33,097 bases of DNA from Pseudomonadota bacterium (GTDB lineage: Bacteria > Pseudomonadota > Gammaproteobacteria > Ga0077536), in NCBI GenBank assembly GCA_029977665.1, contig JAPOKK010000011.1, forward strand, positions 1 through 33,097, read 5' to 3'. Below the pieces are notes generated by a model. It worked only from the letters and a program-made list of their open reading frames with translations, searched no databases and had not been told where the DNA came from. Each line of letters opens with the position of its first letter. Within the stretch, counting starts at the first letter, position 1. Below, in pieces: positions 361 through 9,691 of the stretch. Both the position numbers and the translations under genes were made by a program.

Positions 361-1137
361 TCAGGTCTGATCGGGGCCGGTTTCCTGCGCCTGGAGAGCG
401 TTTTCGAGCATGCCGGCGAGGCGTCCCGCCCAGGCCCGGGCAGCCCCGGGCGTGTCGAGCAGGTCCTGCCGACACTCGAGCAGGGCGTTGGGCAGCCCGC
501 GCGCCAGCGCGTGGACCGGGATGCCGTAGTCCTCGGCGTCGATGCGGTAGGGTTCGTTGTCACCGACGACGAGGTCGCCGCGTTCGCGCGCGGCCGCAAT
601 CAGCGCCTCGGCGTAGCGCCGGTCGGCGCCCGACAGCACCGCCAGGTGCCACGGCCGCCGAGTACCGTCGTAGACCGGCGTGAAGCTGTGCACGGCGACG
701 TAGACGCTCGCCTGGCCGCGCGCCGCGCGCGCGTCGAGCAGGCGCGCGATGGTGTCGTGGTAAGGCGCATGCACGGCGGCCAGGCGCGCCGCGCGCGCAG
801 TCGCGTCGAGGCCGCGGTTGCCCGGCACCTCGATGCGTTCGGAGCGTGCGGGAACCAGCTGCGCGCTCTGTGCGGGACGGTTGCAGTCGACGACGAGACG
901 CGAATAGGGCTGCCACACGAGCGTCGCGTCGAGACGGGCCGACAGCGCGCGCGCCAGGTCCAGCGCGCCGATGTCCCAACCGACGTGCGTCAGCAGCGCG
1001 CCGGCGGCGAGGCCGAGGTCGCCGAGTGCGCGCGGCAGGCGCGTACCGGCGTGGTCGCAGGTGAGGAAGAACGGCGAGGCGGCATCGGCACGCTCGACGA
1101 CGTAGGGCGCCGGTTCGTCGGCGGCGAGCAGGCTCAC
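361..1137 (-). CDS. N-formylglutamate amidohydrolase family protein
   Basis: 258 aa. The FGase family (HutG-like) hydrolyses N-formylglutamate to formate and glutamate, and other members act on related N-acyl amino acids. Family motifs are visible: FLTCDHAGTRLP near residues 24-35, HVGWDIGALDLA around 51, YSRLVVDCNR around 78, and VAVHSFTPVYDG around 148. The Asp/His/Glu-rich motifs fit the metal-dependent amidohydrolase fold. It starts 31 bp downstream of the AstE-like gene, so it is probably the third gene of a minus-strand operon. No histidine-degradation (hut) genes are nearby, so a role in histidine catabolism is not supported; a role in the GCS2/AstE-like context is more likely. The substrate is unknown. 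Confidence 0.85.
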   Translation of the reverse strand: MSLLAADEPAPYVVERADAASPFFLTCDHAGTRLPRALGDLGLAAGALLTHVGWDIGALDLARALSARLDATLVWQPYSRLVVDCNRPAQSAQLVPARSERIEVPGNRGLDATARAARLAAVHAPYHDTIARLLDARAARGQASVYVAVHSFTPVYDGTRRPWHLAVLSGADRRYAEALIAAARERGDLVVGDNEPYRIDAEDYGIPVHALARGLPNALLECRQDLLDTPGAARAWAGRLAGMLENALQAQETGPDQT

Positions 1138-1168
1138 GCGGCAGAGCCGGGTGCGTGCACGGCAAGGC

Positions 1169-2194
1169 TCATGGCACCGCGCGGCCGTGCCGGTCGATGC
1201 GCTGCATCAGGTAGCACAGGCAGTCGAGCCGCACCGCGTTGACGTCCAGCGTGAGCATCGACGGCAGCGCGTCGCGGGCCAGGACGATGTCGTCGCCGGG
1301 ATAGTCGAACACCGCGTCGAGCGCGCCACCCCCGGCGTCGACGACATCCAGGCGATGCGCATGACGCGCGCCGAGACGCCCGAAGCGGGTGCCCGCGGCG
1401 AGCTCGCTGAAGTTCAGGTGATCGAGGTCGGGGCGAAACTCGAAGTCGGCCGGCGTGCCGTCGAACGACAGGCTCGCCGCCGCCGGCACGCGCACGATCC
1501 ACCCGGTGCGCATGAGGTCGAGATCGTGCTCGGGTACCGGCGCATGGGGCAGCTCGGCAAGGTGCAGGCAGGCATCGATGTAGGCCTCGGCATGCGCGAT
1601 GTTAGCCGCTACGCCGGCCTTGCCGCATTCGACCGTGACTGCCGGGCAGAGCGTGGCCAGCGCCTGCGACTGTACCCCGGTGGGTTCGGTGAAGTAGACC
1701 ACCGTGCGGCTGAACAGTCGCGCAAGGTGCAGCCAGCGCTCGTCGAGGCGGTTGACGCAGCCGTAATGCGGATTGAGCCCGGTATTGTTGTGGATGTCGA
1801 TACTCGCGAACGGCGCGCGTTGCCGCACGTAGTCGAAGACCTCGGCTATCAGGGCGTGCTCGGGCGACGCGGCGAGACGCGTGCCCGGCCACACGCGGTT
1901 GAAGTCCTGCTGCCCGGGCAGCGTACGCAGGTTGCGCGCAGCGGCCGCAACATTGCCCACGAACAACAGCAGCGGGCGTGGCAGACCGCGCGCCGCGTGG
2001 CGCGCGAGCACCCGCTTGGCCGCCTCGAAGCCGGTGTCCTCGTTGCCGTGCAGCAGCGTCGAGAGGAACAGCGGCGCGCCCTCGCGGCCCGGCAGGTCGA
2101 ACAGGGTCGGGCCGCCGAGCAGGCGCTCGAGTTCGCTCGTGCGTGCCGTCAACAGTCCGGGCGGCAGTGCCTCGAGGACGCGCAGGGCACTCAT
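1169..2194 (-). CDS. Succinylglutamate desuccinylase/aspartoacylase family zinc enzyme
   Basis: 341 aa from the ATG at 2194. The listed ORF runs 83 codons further upstream, but those codons lie inside the GCS2 gene. The ATG overlaps the GCS2 stop codon as ATGA, which indicates translational coupling. M14-like zinc-site motifs are visible: LHGNEDTG (His and Glu ligands, about residue 50), SIDIHNNTGLNPHYG (third His, about 135), and VTVECGKAG, whose Glu is the expected catalytic base. FxRVWPG and GNVAAAARN also fit. Family members cleave N-acyl amino acids (N-succinylglutamate, N-acetylaspartate). No ast arginine-degradation genes are present, so it is probably not the AST-pathway enzyme. The substrate is unassigned. 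Confidence 0.82.
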   Translation of the reverse strand: MSALRVLEALPPGLLTARTSELERLLGGPTLFDLPGREGAPLFLSTLLHGNEDTGFEAAKRVLARHAARGLPRPLLLFVGNVAAAARNLRTLPGQQDFNRVWPGTRLAASPEHALIAEVFDYVRQRAPFASIDIHNNTGLNPHYGCVNRLDERWLHLARLFSRTVVYFTEPTGVQSQALATLCPAVTVECGKAGVAANIAHAEAYIDACLHLAELPHAPVPEHDLDLMRTGWIVRVPAAASLSFDGTPADFEFRPDLDHLNFSELAAGTRFGRLGARHAHRLDVVDAGGGALDAVFDYPGDDIVLARDALPSMLTLDVNAVRLDCLCYLMQRIDRHGRAVP

Positions 2195-3618
2195 CGGCGC
2201 GCCCCGCCCGCCGGCCACTCGTGCACCGGGGCGCCGCTGCGCTGGTACTCGCAGTAGCTCGCCATGAGCCGGTAGGGATGGCGCTCGTGGGCCAGGTAAC
2301 AGGCACGTTGCCAGGCGGCTCCGGTCTGGCCGCAGGCGACCCGCGCACGCACGATGCCGAGCCAGCGCTCGCGCTCGTCGAGGTCGATACCGAGCCGCGC
2401 AAGACCGGCGTCGGCGTCGGCGATCAGCTCGTCGAGCAGCCATCTCGTCGCCGCCCGCTGCCTGCCGTCGCAGGCGAGCGTGGCATCGAGACCGTCGCGC
2501 GCGGCGCTGTAGAAATTGGCCCGGGCGTCACCGGGCGGCACGCGCCCGATGCAATCGCGCATGACCCATTCGTGCACGGCGCCGAGATAGAGCGCGGCAT
2601 TGGCAATCATGTCGACGAGGCTCGGCCCCGCCGGCAGTGCGCGGTGCTCGAGGCGCACGTGCACGCCGTCGCTCTCGACGCCGATCAGCGGCCGGTTCCA
2701 GCGCCAGATGGTGCCGTTGTGCAGGCGCAGGTGGCGGAACGCCTGCGTATCGTCGTCGAAACGAATCGGCAGCAGCACCGGGAACTCGGCTACGTTCTCG
2801 GTGAAACACTCGAACAGCGAGCGCTCGAGGTAACCGCTGCCGAAGGTCACCCGAGGCCGCGCCGCGGCCGGTCCGGCGGCGCCGGCAATAGCCTGCTCGA
2901 AGAGCGGGATACGGGTCTCGTCCCACAACAGGCGATCGAACAGGATGGGGGCATTGACCGCCGCCGCCAATACCGGTGCCGACAGCGCGAGCGAGGCGTT
3001 GTAATAGCGGTGCGCGAGCGACACCGGGATCTTGAAATGCACCTGGAAGGACGTCGTCGCGGCCTCGAGCATGACGTCACTGTGGCAGAGCGCCAGCCGC
3101 TCGCGGCCGTCGATGCGGATCTCGAGCGGGCGTCCACGATTGGCCGCGAGGAGTTCGTGGTTGAGCGCGTAGTAGCGCTTGAGCGGCGAGATGTTGGCGA
3201 GGGACAGGTCACGCTCACGGATCGTCGGCAACGTGCCGATCATCACCATGTTGGCATCGAGGCCGTGGGCCACGGCGTTGCAGTGCGCCCACAGCGTGGC
3301 GAGATCCTGCGCGGCGGCGGAAAAGGTACGCGGCGCGAAATCGCGCACCGGCGTGTTCAGCTCGACGTTGAAGCGCGACAGCTCGGGCACGACGTCGGGC
3401 GAATCGAGCGCTTCGAGCAACTCGGCGTTGCGCGGTACCGGGTGAAAGCCGTGGTCGAGCAGCCAGGCTTCGAGTTCGAAGCCCCAGGTATAGCCGTCGT
3501 CGGAGAGCGAACCGTCGCCGAATCGGCGCCCCAGGGCCGCGGTCTCGTGCGCCAGGCGCGCGGCGAACGACGCGAAGTCCTCGCGGCTGAACGTGGTCGT
3601 CGAGATTTCTTCGCCCAT
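2191..3618 (-). CDS. Glutamate-cysteine ligase family 2 (GCS2)-like ATP-dependent carboxylate-amine ligase
   Basis: 475 aa. GCS2 (YbdK-type) enzymes join the carboxyl group of glutamate, or of a similar acid, to an amine using ATP. Supporting sequence includes YTWGFELEAWLLD near residue 44, where the metal-binding Glu of the fold is expected, FNVELNTPV around 85, SDVMLEAATTSFQVHFKIP around 185, and FGSGYLERSL further on. It is the first gene of a three-gene minus-strand operon and overlaps the next gene by ATGA. A weak AAGG sits just before the ATG. It may make a gamma-glutamyl or other N-acyl conjugate that the two downstream hydrolases process. True gamma-glutamylcysteine synthesis cannot be excluded. 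No glutathione synthetase gene lies beside it. Confidence 0.8.
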   Translation of the reverse strand: MGEEISTTTFSREDFASFAARLAHETAALGRRFGDGSLSDDGYTWGFELEAWLLDHGFHPVPRNAELLEALDSPDVVPELSRFNVELNTPVRDFAPRTFSAAAQDLATLWAHCNAVAHGLDANMVMIGTLPTIRERDLSLANISPLKRYYALNHELLAANRGRPLEIRIDGRERLALCHSDVMLEAATTSFQVHFKIPVSLAHRYYNASLALSAPVLAAAVNAPILFDRLLWDETRIPLFEQAIAGAAGPAAARPRVTFGSGYLERSLFECFTENVAEFPVLLPIRFDDDTQAFRHLRLHNGTIWRWNRPLIGVESDGVHVRLEHRALPAGPSLVDMIANAALYLGAVHEWVMRDCIGRVPPGDARANFYSAARDGLDATLACDGRQRAATRWLLDELIADADAGLARLGIDLDERERWLGIVRARVACGQTGAAWQRACYLAHERHPYRLMASYCEYQRSGAPVHEWPAGGARR

Positions 3619-3700
3619 GCCTTGCGCTCGTTGCCTGCTTCCCGCGACGCGGGCGCGGAGGCGGATTATAGGGCTTCGGCCGCGTGCCGGCGGAGGGGGC

Positions 3701-3763
3701 TGGACAGCCTGTCATCATGCACTATACTGCAGGTTCTATCGCGAACCCATGCATTATTGTGCT
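3701..3763 (+). promoter_or_regulatory. boxR promoter overlapped by TGCA-N6-TGCA operator
   Basis: A good sigma-70 promoter is visible: TGGACA (3701-3706), a 16-nt spacer, and TATACT (3723-3728). A TGCA-CTATAC-TGCA repeat (3718-3731) lies directly over the -10 box. A degenerate second copy, TGCA-TTATTG-TGCT, is at 3750-3763, 32 bp further on and so on about the same helical face. From family knowledge, BzdR/BoxR repressors bind TGCA repeats separated by 6 bp. The placement predicts that BoxR represses its own operon until benzoyl-CoA releases it. Binding itself is inferred. Confidence 0.65.
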
Positions 3764-3767
3764 TTTC

Positions 3768-4661
3768 ATGAGCGTACCCGCTTCCGCCGACGACGCCACC
3801 GACGATGCTGCCTATCTCGCGCAGCTCGGCGCACGCGTGCGCCGCCTGCGCGCGCGGCGCGGTATGTCGCGGCGCATTCTCGCCGCGGCCTCGGGCATCT
3901 CGGAGCGCTACCTCGCGCAACTCGAAACCGGCAAGGGCAACGCCTCGATTCTCGTGTTGAAGGCCGTCGCCACGGCCATGCACGTCGCCCTCGACGACCT
4001 CGTCGACGAACGCGCCGAGCAGAGCGTGGAGTACCTGTTGCTGCGCGAGCGCCTGCGCGCGGCGGACGACGACGAGCTGCGCCGCCTCGCCGAGGGCCTG
4101 GCCGGCACCCGCACGGGTGCCGCCCCGCGGCCGGCCCACATCGCCCTGATCGGGCTGCGCGGTGCCGGCAAGAGCACGCTCGGCGCCGCGCTCGCCAAGC
4201 GCCTCGGCATGCCGTTCGTCGAACTCGTGCAGGAGATCGAGCGGGCCGCCGGCATGGCGGTGAGCGAGATCTTCGCGCGCGGCGGCCAGACCGCTTACCG
4301 CCGCTTCGAGCGCGCCGCGCTGGCCGCCTCGCTCGAACGCTTCGAACGTGCCGTGATCGCCTGCGGCGGCAGTCTCGTGTCCGAACCGCGCACTTTCGAC
4401 TACCTGCTCGCGTCCTGCTGCACGGTCTGGCTGCGCGCGCAGCCGCGCGAGCACATGGAGCGCGTCATCGCACAGGGCGATTACCGGCCAATGGCGGACA
4501 ACCGCCATGCGATGGCGGACCTCCGCCGCATCCTGGACGAGCGCGCGAGCCTCTATGCGCGCGCCGATTACACCATCGACACCTCCGCCAACGGCGTCGA
4601 GCAGGCGCTGACCGCGCTGCTCGAACTGCCGGCCGTGCGCGAGCTGGCCATTGCTTCCTGA
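3768..4661 (+). CDS. boxR: BoxR/BzdR-type benzoyl-CoA-responsive repressor (HTH-XRE plus shikimate-kinase-like domain)
   Basis: 297 aa from the ATG at 3768, matching the roughly 300 aa of BzdR. The 28 extra ORF-track codons overlap the promoter, so they are rejected. The N-terminal XRE helix-turn-helix (about 20-75) contains RRGMSRRILAAASGISERYLAQLETGKGN. The C-terminal shikimate-kinase-like half (about 128-290) begins with Walker A GLRGAGKST and includes AYRRFERAAL and IACGGSLV. In BzdR/BoxR this domain binds benzoyl-CoA and no longer needs to act as a kinase. It is followed directly by boxC, and the boxC Shine-Dalgarno overlaps its stop codon. It should control the downstream benzoate genes. 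Confidence 0.93.
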   Translation: MSVPASADDATDDAAYLAQLGARVRRLRARRGMSRRILAAASGISERYLAQLETGKGNASILVLKAVATAMHVALDDLVDERAEQSVEYLLLRERLRAADDDELRRLAEGLAGTRTGAAPRPAHIALIGLRGAGKSTLGAALAKRLGMPFVELVQEIERAAGMAVSEIFARGGQTAYRRFERAALAASLERFERAVIACGGSLVSEPRTFDYLLASCCTVWLRAQPREHMERVIAQGDYRPMADNRHAMADLRRILDERASLYARADYTIDTSANGVEQALTALLELPAVRELAIAS

Positions 4662-4671
4662 GGAGCTTCCG

Positions 4672-6372
4672 ATGCCGACCGCCGCCCCCGACACGCTCTC
4701 GGCAGACGCCGCCGAGGCGCGCGTCATCGATTTCCGAACCGCACCCGATCGCTACCATCACTGGGATCTCCGCATCGACGGCCGCGTCGCCTGGCTCGGC
4801 CTCGACGTCGACGAGCAGGCGACGATCGGCAACGGCTACGAGCTCAAGCTGAACTCCTACGACCTCGGCGTCGACATCGAGCTCCACGACGCCATCCAGC
4901 GCCTGCGCTTCGAACACCCCGAAGTCGGCTGCGTGGTGGTCCATTCCAAGAATGAGCGCGTCTTCTGCGCCGGCGCCAACATCAAGATGCTCGGCCGCGC
5001 CACGCATGCGCACAAGGTCAACTTCTGCAAGTTCACCAACGAGACGCGCAACGGCATCGAAGATGCGAGCACCGGTTCCGGTCTGGGCTTCCTGTGCGCG
5101 GTGAAAGGTTCCTGCGCCGGTGGCGGCTACGAGCTCGCGCTGGCCTGCGACGAGATCATCCTCGCCGACGATGGCGCAAGCGCGGTCTCGCTGCCCGAGC
5201 TGCCGCTGCTCGCGGTGTTGCCGGGCACCGGCGGCCTGACCCGGCTGGTCGACAAGCGGCACGTGCGCCGCGACCGCGCCGATTTCTTCTGCACCATCGA
5301 GGAAGGAATCCGTGGCAAGCGCGCGCTCGACTGGCGCCTGGTCGACAGCATCGTGCCCTCCTCGGCCTTCGATGCGGCAATCGGCACGCGCGCCGGCGAG
5401 ATCGCCGCGGCGAGCGACCGGCCGGCCGATGCCACCGGCATTGCGCTGACGCCGCTCGCGCGTCGCGTCGAAGCCGACGCGCTGCACTACGACCACCTCG
5501 ACATCCGGCTCGACCGCGCCACGCGCCTGGCGACGTTCACCCTGCGCGGACCGCTCGACGAACTGCCGGGCACACTTGACGAGATCCTTGCGCAGGGCGC
5601 CGCGTTCTGGCCACTGGCGCTGATGCGCGAACTCGACGACGCCATCCTCCACCTGCGCTTCAACGAAGGGGAGATCGGCACCTGGATGTTCAAGAGCGAA
5701 GGTGACGTCGAGCGCGTACTCGCCGCCGATGCGCTGCTCGAGGCCCACGCCGCGGACTGGTTCGTGCGCGAGGTGCGCCTGTTCGCGCAGCGCGTGCTCA
5801 AGCGCATCGATGTCTCCGCGCGCACGCTCATAGCCGCCGTCGAACCGGGTTCCTGCTTCGCCGGCACCTTGCTCGAGCTGGTACTCGCGGCCGACCAGAG
5901 CTTCATGCTCGACGGCCGGTTCGAGGACGACGAGCGCCCGCCGGCGCACGTTGCGCTCTCCGCGGCCAATTTCGGCCGCCTGCGCATGGTCAACGGCCTG
6001 ACCCGGCTCGAAGCGCGTTCGCTCGACGACCCCGGCGCGGTCGCGCGCCTGGAAGCGCTGAGCGCGCAGCCGCTCGACGCCGCGCGCGCGGAGGAACTCG
6101 GCCTGGTCACGTTCATTCCCGACGACATCGACTGGGAGGACGAGCTGCGCATTCTCGTCGAGGCGCGCGCCGGCTTCTCGCCGGACGCGCTGAGCGGCCT
6201 CGAAGCGAACATCCGCTTTCCCGGCCCGGAAACCATGGAATCGAAGATTTTCGCGCGCCTGTCCGCGTGGCAGAACTGGATCTTCCAACGACCCAACGCG
6301 GTCGGCGAGAAAGGGGCACTGGTGCTCTACGGCACTGGCGAACGCCCGCAGTACGACAAGCGCCGCGTGTAG
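4672..6372 (+). CDS. boxC: 2,3-epoxybenzoyl-CoA dihydrolase BoxC
   Basis: 566 aa. BoxC is the crotonase-superfamily enzyme that opens 2,3-epoxybenzoyl-CoA to the semialdehyde CoA ester and formate. The start at 4672 follows AGGAG with 6-nt spacing; the ORF-track start at 4651 lies inside boxR. An N-terminal crotonase-like half shows VVVHSKNERVFCAGANIKMLG (oxyanion-hole region) and CAVKGSCAGGGYELALACDEI. A second, more diverged half holds AAVEPGSCFAGTLLELVLAADQSFMLDG. The C-terminus has NIRFPGPETMESKIFARLSAWQNWIFQRPNA, characteristic of BoxC. Its length matches the family. It lies between boxR and boxB on one strand and is presumably co-transcribed. Confidence 0.95.
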   Translation: MPTAAPDTLSADAAEARVIDFRTAPDRYHHWDLRIDGRVAWLGLDVDEQATIGNGYELKLNSYDLGVDIELHDAIQRLRFEHPEVGCVVVHSKNERVFCAGANIKMLGRATHAHKVNFCKFTNETRNGIEDASTGSGLGFLCAVKGSCAGGGYELALACDEIILADDGASAVSLPELPLLAVLPGTGGLTRLVDKRHVRRDRADFFCTIEEGIRGKRALDWRLVDSIVPSSAFDAAIGTRAGEIAAASDRPADATGIALTPLARRVEADALHYDHLDIRLDRATRLATFTLRGPLDELPGTLDEILAQGAAFWPLALMRELDDAILHLRFNEGEIGTWMFKSEGDVERVLAADALLEAHAADWFVREVRLFAQRVLKRIDVSARTLIAAVEPGSCFAGTLLELVLAADQSFMLDGRFEDDERPPAHVALSAANFGRLRMVNGLTRLEARSLDDPGAVARLEALSAQPLDAARAEELGLVTFIPDDIDWEDELRILVEARAGFSPDALSGLEANIRFPGPETMESKIFARLSAWQNWIFQRPNAVGEKGALVLYGTGERPQYDKRRV

Positions 6373-6390
6373 CGGCGGAGGAAACCCGAC

Positions 6391-7809
<1,419 letters not shown>

Positions 7810-7814
7810 CGTCC

Positions 7815-8129
7815 ATGGGTACCGTGATCGCAACCGACCGCGAAGGCGCCGAGCACCGACTCGAGGCGAGGGAAGGCCATACGTTGATGGAGATCCTGCG
7901 TGACGGCGGGCTGCCGATCGAAGCGATCTGCGGCGGCCAGTGCATCTGTTCGACCTGCCACGTCTACGTCGACGCGGAGTGGGCGGGCCGGCTGACGCCG
8001 CGCGCGACCGACGAGCAGGTCATGGTCGAGGACTCCGGCCACTACGAGGAGAACTCGCGACTCGCCTGCCAGGTACCCTACGTCGACGAGCTGGACGGCA
8101 TCCGCCTGACGCTCGCGCCCGAGTTCTGA
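7815..8129 (+). CDS. [2Fe-2S] ferredoxin, adrenodoxin type
   Basis: 104 aa from the ATG at 7815. The ORF-track start is a GTG at 7806 that overlaps the boxB stop codon and remains possible. The ATG puts the MGTVIATDREG beta-strand where adrenodoxin-type ferredoxins begin. Cluster cysteines fit C-x5-C-x2-C plus a distant C: the CGGQCICSTCHVYV segment near residue 40 and LACQV near residue 85. It carries single electrons in the cytoplasm. It lies between boxB and the benzoate-CoA ligase gene with overlapping or near-overlapping ends, so it is very likely part of the operon. I infer that it feeds electrons to BoxB; the reductase that would charge it is not here. Confidence 0.88.
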   Translation: MGTVIATDREGAEHRLEAREGHTLMEILRDGGLPIEAICGGQCICSTCHVYVDAEWAGRLTPRATDEQVMVEDSGHYEENSRLACQVPYVDELDGIRLTLAPEF

Positions 8130-9691
8130 TGGCGACGGGTGAGGCCGCGGCGGACGCAGCGCCGCGGCCCTACAACGCCGCCGCCGATCTTGTCGAACGC
8201 AACCTCGTGGCCGGGCGCGCCGACAAGCTCGCCTACATCGACGACCACGGCCGCTACACCTACGGCGAACTCGACGCCGCGGTGCGCCGCGCCGCGGCAT
8301 TGTGGCGTCGGCTCGGCGTCGCGCGAGAGCAGCGCGTACTGCTCGCCATGCACGACAGCTTCGCCCTGCCGGTGATGTTCCTCGGCGCCATCCGCGCCGG
8401 CGTCGTGCCGGTGCTGGCCAACACCCTGCTGACCGCCGACGACTACCGCTACCTGCTCGACGACAGCCGTGCACGGGTCGCCATCGTCTCGGCACCGCTG
8501 GCTGCGAACTTCGCTGGCGCGCAGGCCGCTGTCCCCGAACTGGTGCGCCTGATCGTCGCCGGAGGTGACGACGACGAGCTCGGCGGCTTGCTCGCGCAGG
8601 CGGAAGGCGACGACACGGTGGCCGCGACCTGCAGCGACGAAGCCTGCTTCTGGCTGTATTCCTCCGGCTCGACCGGCCGTCCCAAGGGCACCGTGCACGT
8701 GCACGCCTCGCTCGCCCTGACCGCAGAGCTGTACGCGCACCCGGTCCTCGGCATCCGCGCCGACGACGTGCTGTTCTCCGCGGCCAAGTTGTTCTTCGCC
8801 TATGGCCTCGGCAACGCCCTGTCGTTCCCGCTCAGCGTCGGCGCCACCACGGTGCTGATGGCCGAACGGCCGACGCCCGAGGCCGTTTTCGCGCGTCTCG
8901 TCGAACACCGGCCGACGCTCTTCTTCGGCGTGCCGACGCTCTATGCCGGCTTGCTCGCGCACCCCGGGCTGCCGCCCGCGGACGCGCTGTCACTACGCCT
9001 GTGCACGTCCGCCGGTGAAGCGCTGCCGGCCGATCTCGGGACGCGCTGGCGGGCGCATTTCGGCATCGACATCCTCGACGGCATCGGCTCGACGGAGATG
9101 TTGCACATCTTCCTCTCCAACCGCCTCGGCGACGTCCGCTACGGCACGACGGGGCGCGCGGTCGCCGGTTACGAGCTGCGCATCGTCGACGATGACGACC
9201 AGCCGGTCGCGCCGGGCGAGATCGGTGAGCTGCACGTCGCCGGACCGACCGCCGCGGCGCATTACTGGAACAAGCGCGCGCAGTCGCGCGCCACGTTCGC
9301 CGGACGCTGGACGCGCACCGGCGACAAATACCGCCAGGACGACGACGGCTACTACGTCTACTGTGGACGCAGCGACGACATGCTCAAGGTCGGCGGCATC
9401 TACGTCTCGCCGACCGAGGTCGAAGCGGCGCTGATCGCGCACGAGGCGGTGCTCGAGGCGGCGGTCGTCGGTCAGCGCGACGCTGCCGGCCTGGTCAAAC
9501 CGCGCGCTTTCGTCGTGCTCAAGGCCGGGCACCAGGGTGACGACGCGCTCGCCGAAGCCCTCAAGCGGCACGTCAAGGATCGCCTCGCGCCATACAAGTA
9601 TCCGCGCTGGATCGATTTCATCGAAATGCTGCCGAAAACCGCGACCGGCAAGATTCAGCGCTACCGCTTGCGCGAAGCCGATCATTGTTGA
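8129..9691 (+). CDS. bclA: Benzoate-CoA ligase
   Basis: 520 aa, adenylate-forming family, making benzoyl-CoA from benzoate, ATP and CoA. The start is the ATG at 8129, which overlaps the ferredoxin stop as TGATG; the 63 ORF-track codons before it are a shadow. Motifs in order: YSSGSTGRPKGTVH (ATP loop, about 174), DGIGSTEMLHIFLSN (acyl/AMP pocket, about 315), RTGDKYRQDDDGYYVYCGRSDDMLKVGG (hinge, about 395), and PKTATGKIQRYRLR near the end with the catalytic Lys. GIGSTEMLHIF is typical of benzoate and hydroxybenzoate ligases. It is the last gene of the box operon and supplies the pathway substrate and the BoxR inducer. 4-Hydroxybenzoate or another aryl acid is an alternative substrate, but the context favours benzoate. 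Confidence 0.92.
   Translation: MATGEAAADAAPRPYNAAADLVERNLVAGRADKLAYIDDHGRYTYGELDAAVRRAAALWRRLGVAREQRVLLAMHDSFALPVMFLGAIRAGVVPVLANTLLTADDYRYLLDDSRARVAIVSAPLAANFAGAQAAVPELVRLIVAGGDDDELGGLLAQAEGDDTVAATCSDEACFWLYSSGSTGRPKGTVHVHASLALTAELYAHPVLGIRADDVLFSAAKLFFAYGLGNALSFPLSVGATTVLMAERPTPEAVFARLVEHRPTLFFGVPTLYAGLLAHPGLPPADALSLRLCTSAGEALPADLGTRWRAHFGIDILDGIGSTEMLHIFLSNRLGDVRYGTTGRAVAGYELRIVDDDDQPVAPGEIGELHVAGPTAAAHYWNKRAQSRATFAGRWTRTGDKYRQDDDGYYVYCGRSDDMLKVGGIYVSPTEVEAALIAHEAVLEAAVVGQRDAAGLVKPRAFVVLKAGHQGDDALAEALKRHVKDRLAPYKYPRWIDFIEMLPKTATGKIQRYRLREADHC

Follow-up and report, generated by a model that had tools for sequence, protein, structure and literature searches.

The main finding of this analysis is a widespread and uncharacterised gene pair, encoding a GCS2/YbdK-like carboxylate-amine ligase and an AstE/aspartoacylase-like zinc amide hydrolase, with a link to murU. 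The run of three genes of which the pair forms the first part is a local feature, confined to a single genus.

Gene layout in the window

The window, i.e. the whole stretch of 33,097 nucleotides analysed here, is an entire contig whose end is position 1. Three genes lie in a run on its minus strand and are transcribed in the order ligase, hydrolase, N-formylglutamate-amidohydrolase-like (FGase-like). The features of the locus are as follows.

3618..2191, minus strand: GCS2/YbdK-like carboxylate-amine ligase gene (475 aa; YbdK-like predicted fold and invariant motifs)
2194..1169, minus strand: AstE/aspartoacylase-like zinc amide hydrolase gene (341 aa; PF24827)
2191..2194, minus strand: ATGA overlap of ligase stop and hydrolase start (read from the sequence)
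1137..361, minus strand: N-formylglutamate-amidohydrolase-like gene of the Atu2144 type, FGase-like (258 aa, GTG start; PF05013)
3619..3770, no strand: divergent intergenic region between the ligase gene and the boxR-like regulator gene (from the gene calls)
3771-4661, facing the ligase gene: boxR-like regulator gene (NCBIfam PRK08154)

Gene calls and sequence bore out the layout as originally predicted: the three genes stand in the stated order, the first two overlap by ATGA, and 31 bp separate the end of the hydrolase gene (1169) from the start of the FGase-like gene (1137). Comparison with the second genome of the genus gave dN/dS values of 0.09 for the ligase, 0.08 for the hydrolase and 0.18 for the FGase-like gene, with frames intact; all three genes are real and under strong purifying selection.

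Aerobic benzoyl-CoA (box) genes occupy positions 3771-9691, comprising the BoxR-like regulator, BoxC- and BoxB-like genes and, between BoxB and a gene resembling CoA ligases, a 2Fe-2S ferredoxin. In the sister genome of the same genus (L013:4308-6973), two AdoMet decarboxylase genes with a spermidine synthase gene between them lie behind the FGase gene, on its strand. Judged by eye, the contig end of the window (positions 1 to about 145) falls inside the first of these decarboxylases.

Predicted fold and motifs of the ligase

No Pfam family, GCS2 (PF04107) included, matched the window ligase, and a Pfam GCS2 search of its own genome missed the gene despite its presence, which places the protein below Pfam's reach. 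NCBIfam gave a weak match to PRK13517 (5e-5), and 52 of 70 aligned relatives matched PF04107 (E <= 0.001; best 6e-11). Because a PDB sequence search with the ligase alignment returned no match even at E = 1, a fold comparison was needed. The structural model (pLDDT 95.7) had E. coli YbdK as its top match (PDB 1r8g; E = 5e-14; TM 0.81, normalised to target length); glutamate-cysteine ligases from plants and yeast were likewise among the best solved relatives. Nine residues (E48, E50, E79, E86, H194, R236, R322, E324 and R326) were invariant across 70 sequences, and the motifs GxExE, E...ExN, QxH, R and ExR lined up with those of YbdK and GshA from E. coli; hhalign supplied the match for E-x-R, and the remaining ones were matched by eye. 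The hhalign probability against YbdK was 31%, a very weak sequence similarity, and the substrate may thus differ entirely from glutamate.

Judged from the model and from acidic and basic positions that would bind metal and ATP, the ligase appears to belong to the GCS2/YbdK superfamily. It has in common with the YbdK family (GCS2, TIGR02050; E. coli YbdK, 1r8g) the fold and the order of GxExE, E-x-E/N, H, R and E-x-R, but is ~100 residues longer, has 15% identity, stays below the Pfam threshold and, with its relatives, nearly always has an AstE-like hydrolase partner. One relative (L022:2431-4287, genome G040) has two CBS domains at its C terminus, a possible means of nucleotide control; the hydrolase gene of that genome is on another contig.

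Could the protein be a plain gamma-glutamylcysteine synthetase that backs up GshA? It has the GCS superfamily fold and catalytic motifs, and YbdK itself has gamma-glutamyl:cysteine ligase activity according to the title of a work cited in PMC2588565. However, canonical genes for both steps of glutathione synthesis, gshA (E = 7e-159) and gshB (E = 1.5e-106), are already present on other contigs of the genome, in line with the initial remark that the run lies away from glutathione genes; plain glutathione synthesis by the ligase is therefore not needed. In addition, the ligase scored 22 bits against a cut-off of 409 on the NCBIfam glutamate-cysteine ligase equivalog, and its near-obligate hydrolase partner would be left unexplained. 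We consider a GshA backup very improbable, and the product is probably not glutathione. The GshA profile PF08886 had no match anywhere searched and hence has no bearing on the presence of gshA.

The two hydrolases

The window hydrolase matched AstE_AspA_cat (PF24827; E=6e-12, 45.9 bits against a cut-off of 25), and its fold search returned AstE, aspartoacylase, DoeB and the isoaspartyl-dipeptide enzyme CphZ, as well as the murein peptidase Csd4. H49, E52, H135, N99-R100 and E189 were invariant in all 65 sequences. By the roles of these residues in the family, we take H49, E52 and H135 to be the zinc positions, and N99-R100 is presumably the Asn-Arg pair to which enzymes of this fold bind a free alpha-carboxylate. 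The profile match, together with the full set of putative zinc and catalytic residues, points to membership of the AstE/AspA family and to the fold common to succinylglutamate desuccinylase (AstE), aspartoacylase, DoeB and CphZ. Unlike AstE, the protein is coupled to a ligase gene and not to an ast operon, and on the AstE model NF003706 it reached 16.7 bits against a cut-off of 170.

The third protein belongs to the FGase superfamily (PF05013; E=2e-43, 149.6 bits against a cut-off of 28.9) and resembles the N-formylglutamate amidohydrolase of Atu2144 type over nearly its full length (PDB 2odf; E = 2e-54). It scored 34.7 bits on the HutG N-formylglutamate deformylase model TIGR02017, whose cut-off is 278.75. 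The earlier suspicion that none of the three enzymes is likely to act in its textbook role was thus supported: gshA and gshB are elsewhere, and the AstE and HutG equivalog cut-offs were missed by far.

A conserved ligase-hydrolase pair

At least 590 ligase relatives were found on scanning 84,980 species genomes. Among the 80 best of these loci, 76 had the hydrolase gene downstream of and co-directional with the ligase gene, almost always as its immediate neighbour; of the four exceptions, one is truncated by a contig end. Fusion of the two proteins was seen in three genomes (L019, 814 aa; L098, 820 aa; L100, 821 aa). The ligase was found in 135 of 369 genomes of the window's class, of which 126 had both genes and nine the ligase alone, while three had the hydrolase alone and 231 neither (Fisher p = 3e-83, a value inflated by genome kinship, the sample spanning about 180 family labels). 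Some of the ligase-only and hydrolase-only genomes are contig fragments. Ligase and AstE-like hydrolase are supported by these data as a conserved, functionally linked unit. The proposed survey of RimK-like ATP-grasp partners turned up none as a recurrent neighbour of the pair.

In a few genomes ligase copies are split, duplicated or orphaned (L036:8001-9422, L061:8001-10781, L015:9220-10653), and in one (G054) the hydrolase gene is distant from the ligase gene on the same chromosome. All that came up in a search of plasmids were distant relatives of the ligase from actinobacteria and haloarchaea, none of them with the hydrolase; these lie on Streptomyces, Tsukamurella and Natrinema replicons (L168, L169, L171; 27-35% identity) and have no AstE-like neighbour.

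The FGase-like gene is a local add-on

The original prediction had joined all three families in one unit that makes and trims an N-acyl or gamma-glutamyl compound. The link between ligase and AstE-like hydrolase stood, on the co-occurrence, the adjacency and the three fusions; membership of the FGase did not. Among the 80 best ligase loci, only that of the sister genome shares the arrangement with an FGase gene beside the pair, and in this the genus differs from other carriers of Atu2144-type enzymes. The 29 other top-ranking FGase loci of the class had neither ligase nor hydrolase within their flanks of ~1.5 kb, so the neighbourhood check for the three families was negative. Across the 369 class genomes, FGase was present in 14 of the 135 with the ligase versus 50 of the 234 without it (OR 0.43); the two are, if anything, negatively associated. 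We reject a conserved trio on this absence of co-occurrence outside the genus, and a link of the pair to the benzoate genes was likewise rejected, their adjacency being seen in the window's genus only.

A genus-specific version of the three-enzyme pathway has also to be weighed. Here, the FGase-like enzyme would remove a formyl group and the AstE-like enzyme another acyl group, and the ligase would use the freed amine, possibly in connection with the divergent benzoate genes or the downstream polyamine genes. The tight packing is kept in both genomes of the genus, and the FGase-like gene is under purifying selection and is the only copy in the window's genome. Against this, the three genes do not co-occur outside the genus, and neither benzoate nor polyamine genes were seen beside the pair in other genomes; we regard such a pathway as distinctly unlikely. 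The FGase gene is a local add-on of one genus, and may feed free amines to the pair or be a mere passenger.

In the ligase tree, the window protein groups with those of Methylocystis, Bauldia and Fluviicoccus (support 100/99), in a branch that is mostly alphaproteobacterial, and the ligase is missing from most genomes of the window's own family. Together, these observations suggest sideways acquisition, by which the genus has probably obtained the pair, the FGase gene presumably joining afterwards. For the branch of the ligase tree that holds the window, we looked for a neighbour common to its members and found none.

murU as a neighbour of the pair

MurU is a cell-wall recycling uridylyltransferase that salvages sugar. 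Its gene (equivalog score 324 against a cut-off of 250) lies directly upstream of the ligase gene, on the same strand and within 600 bp, in 57 of 97 cases from 33 families, with a median spacing of about 45 bp; seven further ligase genes have MurU within 2.6 kb. The count covers the 97 ligase genes for which the best MurU locus of the genome was listed and leaves out 32 without a listed MurU; for many of the remaining ones MurU is on another contig. The unit of murU and the pair occurs in two settings, amgK-murU beside lptD and trx-rho-murU without amgK. The pair thus has its neighbourhood in common with the AmgK-MurU cell-wall recycling genes (PMC5371409) in many gammaproteobacteria, and a role for a GCS2-AstE pair in that recycling was not found in the literature searched. 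Nor did our literature search retrieve a description of the pair, a paper on its link to murU, which the original prediction did not contain either, or a match for the three enzyme names together. An amidoligase survey of 2009 may contain an earlier mention.

This neighbourhood raises the idea that the pair serves the peptide side of cell-wall recycling, ligase and M14-type hydrolase acting on muropeptide pieces beside MurU, for example on a gamma-D-glutamyl bond. The frequent position of murU directly upstream, its persistence with the pair in two different settings and the Csd4 match of the hydrolase fold speak for this. On the other hand, murU is not beside the pair in the window or in its branch of the ligase tree, and presence does not track: MurU is over its cut-off in 274 of the 369 class genomes and the pair is in about 130. 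Moreover, 316 of the 369 have mpl above its cut-off, and the match in the genome of the window is strong (E = 3e-184); with Mpl present alongside, the pair is no substitute for it, and we reject a replacement of Mpl by the ligase. Finally, a neighbourhood can be inherited without a common function. We rate this assignment as rather unlikely. The broader proposal, that MurU, ligase and hydrolase form an undescribed cell-wall recycling branch in many proteobacteria, in which a gamma-glutamyl-type muropeptide bond would be cut and remade, we hold to be unlikely as well, by a slightly lower estimate.

A proposed make-and-break module

We slightly favour the view that the pair is a module for making and breaking amides, that its substrate is an amino acid or a peptide, and that it may be connected with cell-wall recycling. 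From its fold and motifs, the GCS2/YbdK-type enzyme would activate a carboxylate with ATP, most likely the side chain of glutamate or of a glutamate-like residue, and join it to an amine. The AstE/aspartoacylase-type zinc enzyme would then cut an amide next to a free carboxylate, either the bond made in the first step or a neighbouring N-acyl group. As a gamma-glutamyl-amino acid is an amide beside a free carboxylate, a cycle of making and breaking is the simplest reading; the next simplest is that the hydrolase removes a protecting group after an unseen modification.

Several lines of evidence are consistent with such a module. Ligase and hydrolase co-occur, adjoin and are at times fused; YbdK is the top structural match, the E-x-R motif aligns, and the zinc and catalytic positions are invariant; and the fold matches of the hydrolase include deacylases and CphZ. 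Likewise, canonical gshA and gshB are encoded elsewhere, the pair is under strong purifying selection, and the window ligase groups with those of Methylocystis, Bauldia and Fluviicoccus while most genomes of its own family lack it. What weighs against the module is the very weak similarity of the ligase to YbdK, the nine genomes with ligase but no hydrolase and the three of the reverse kind (some of them contig fragments), and the actinobacterial and haloarchaeal ligase relatives that have no AstE neighbour.

Glutathionylspermidine synthetase/amidase makes and breaks one conjugate. It unites ligase and amidase in one polypeptide, as do the fused GCS2-AstE proteins, but the folds are unrelated and the likeness is an analogy only.

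Across the proteobacterial genomes surveyed, ligase and hydrolase seldom occur apart and are at times a single protein, which marks a metabolite or modification that is widespread but undescribed. As a frequent neighbour, murU gives a concrete place to look for it, and the fused proteins offer a single construct for assays. If the recycling branch of MurU and the pair were real, the salvage of sugar and that of peptide would be encoded in one operon.
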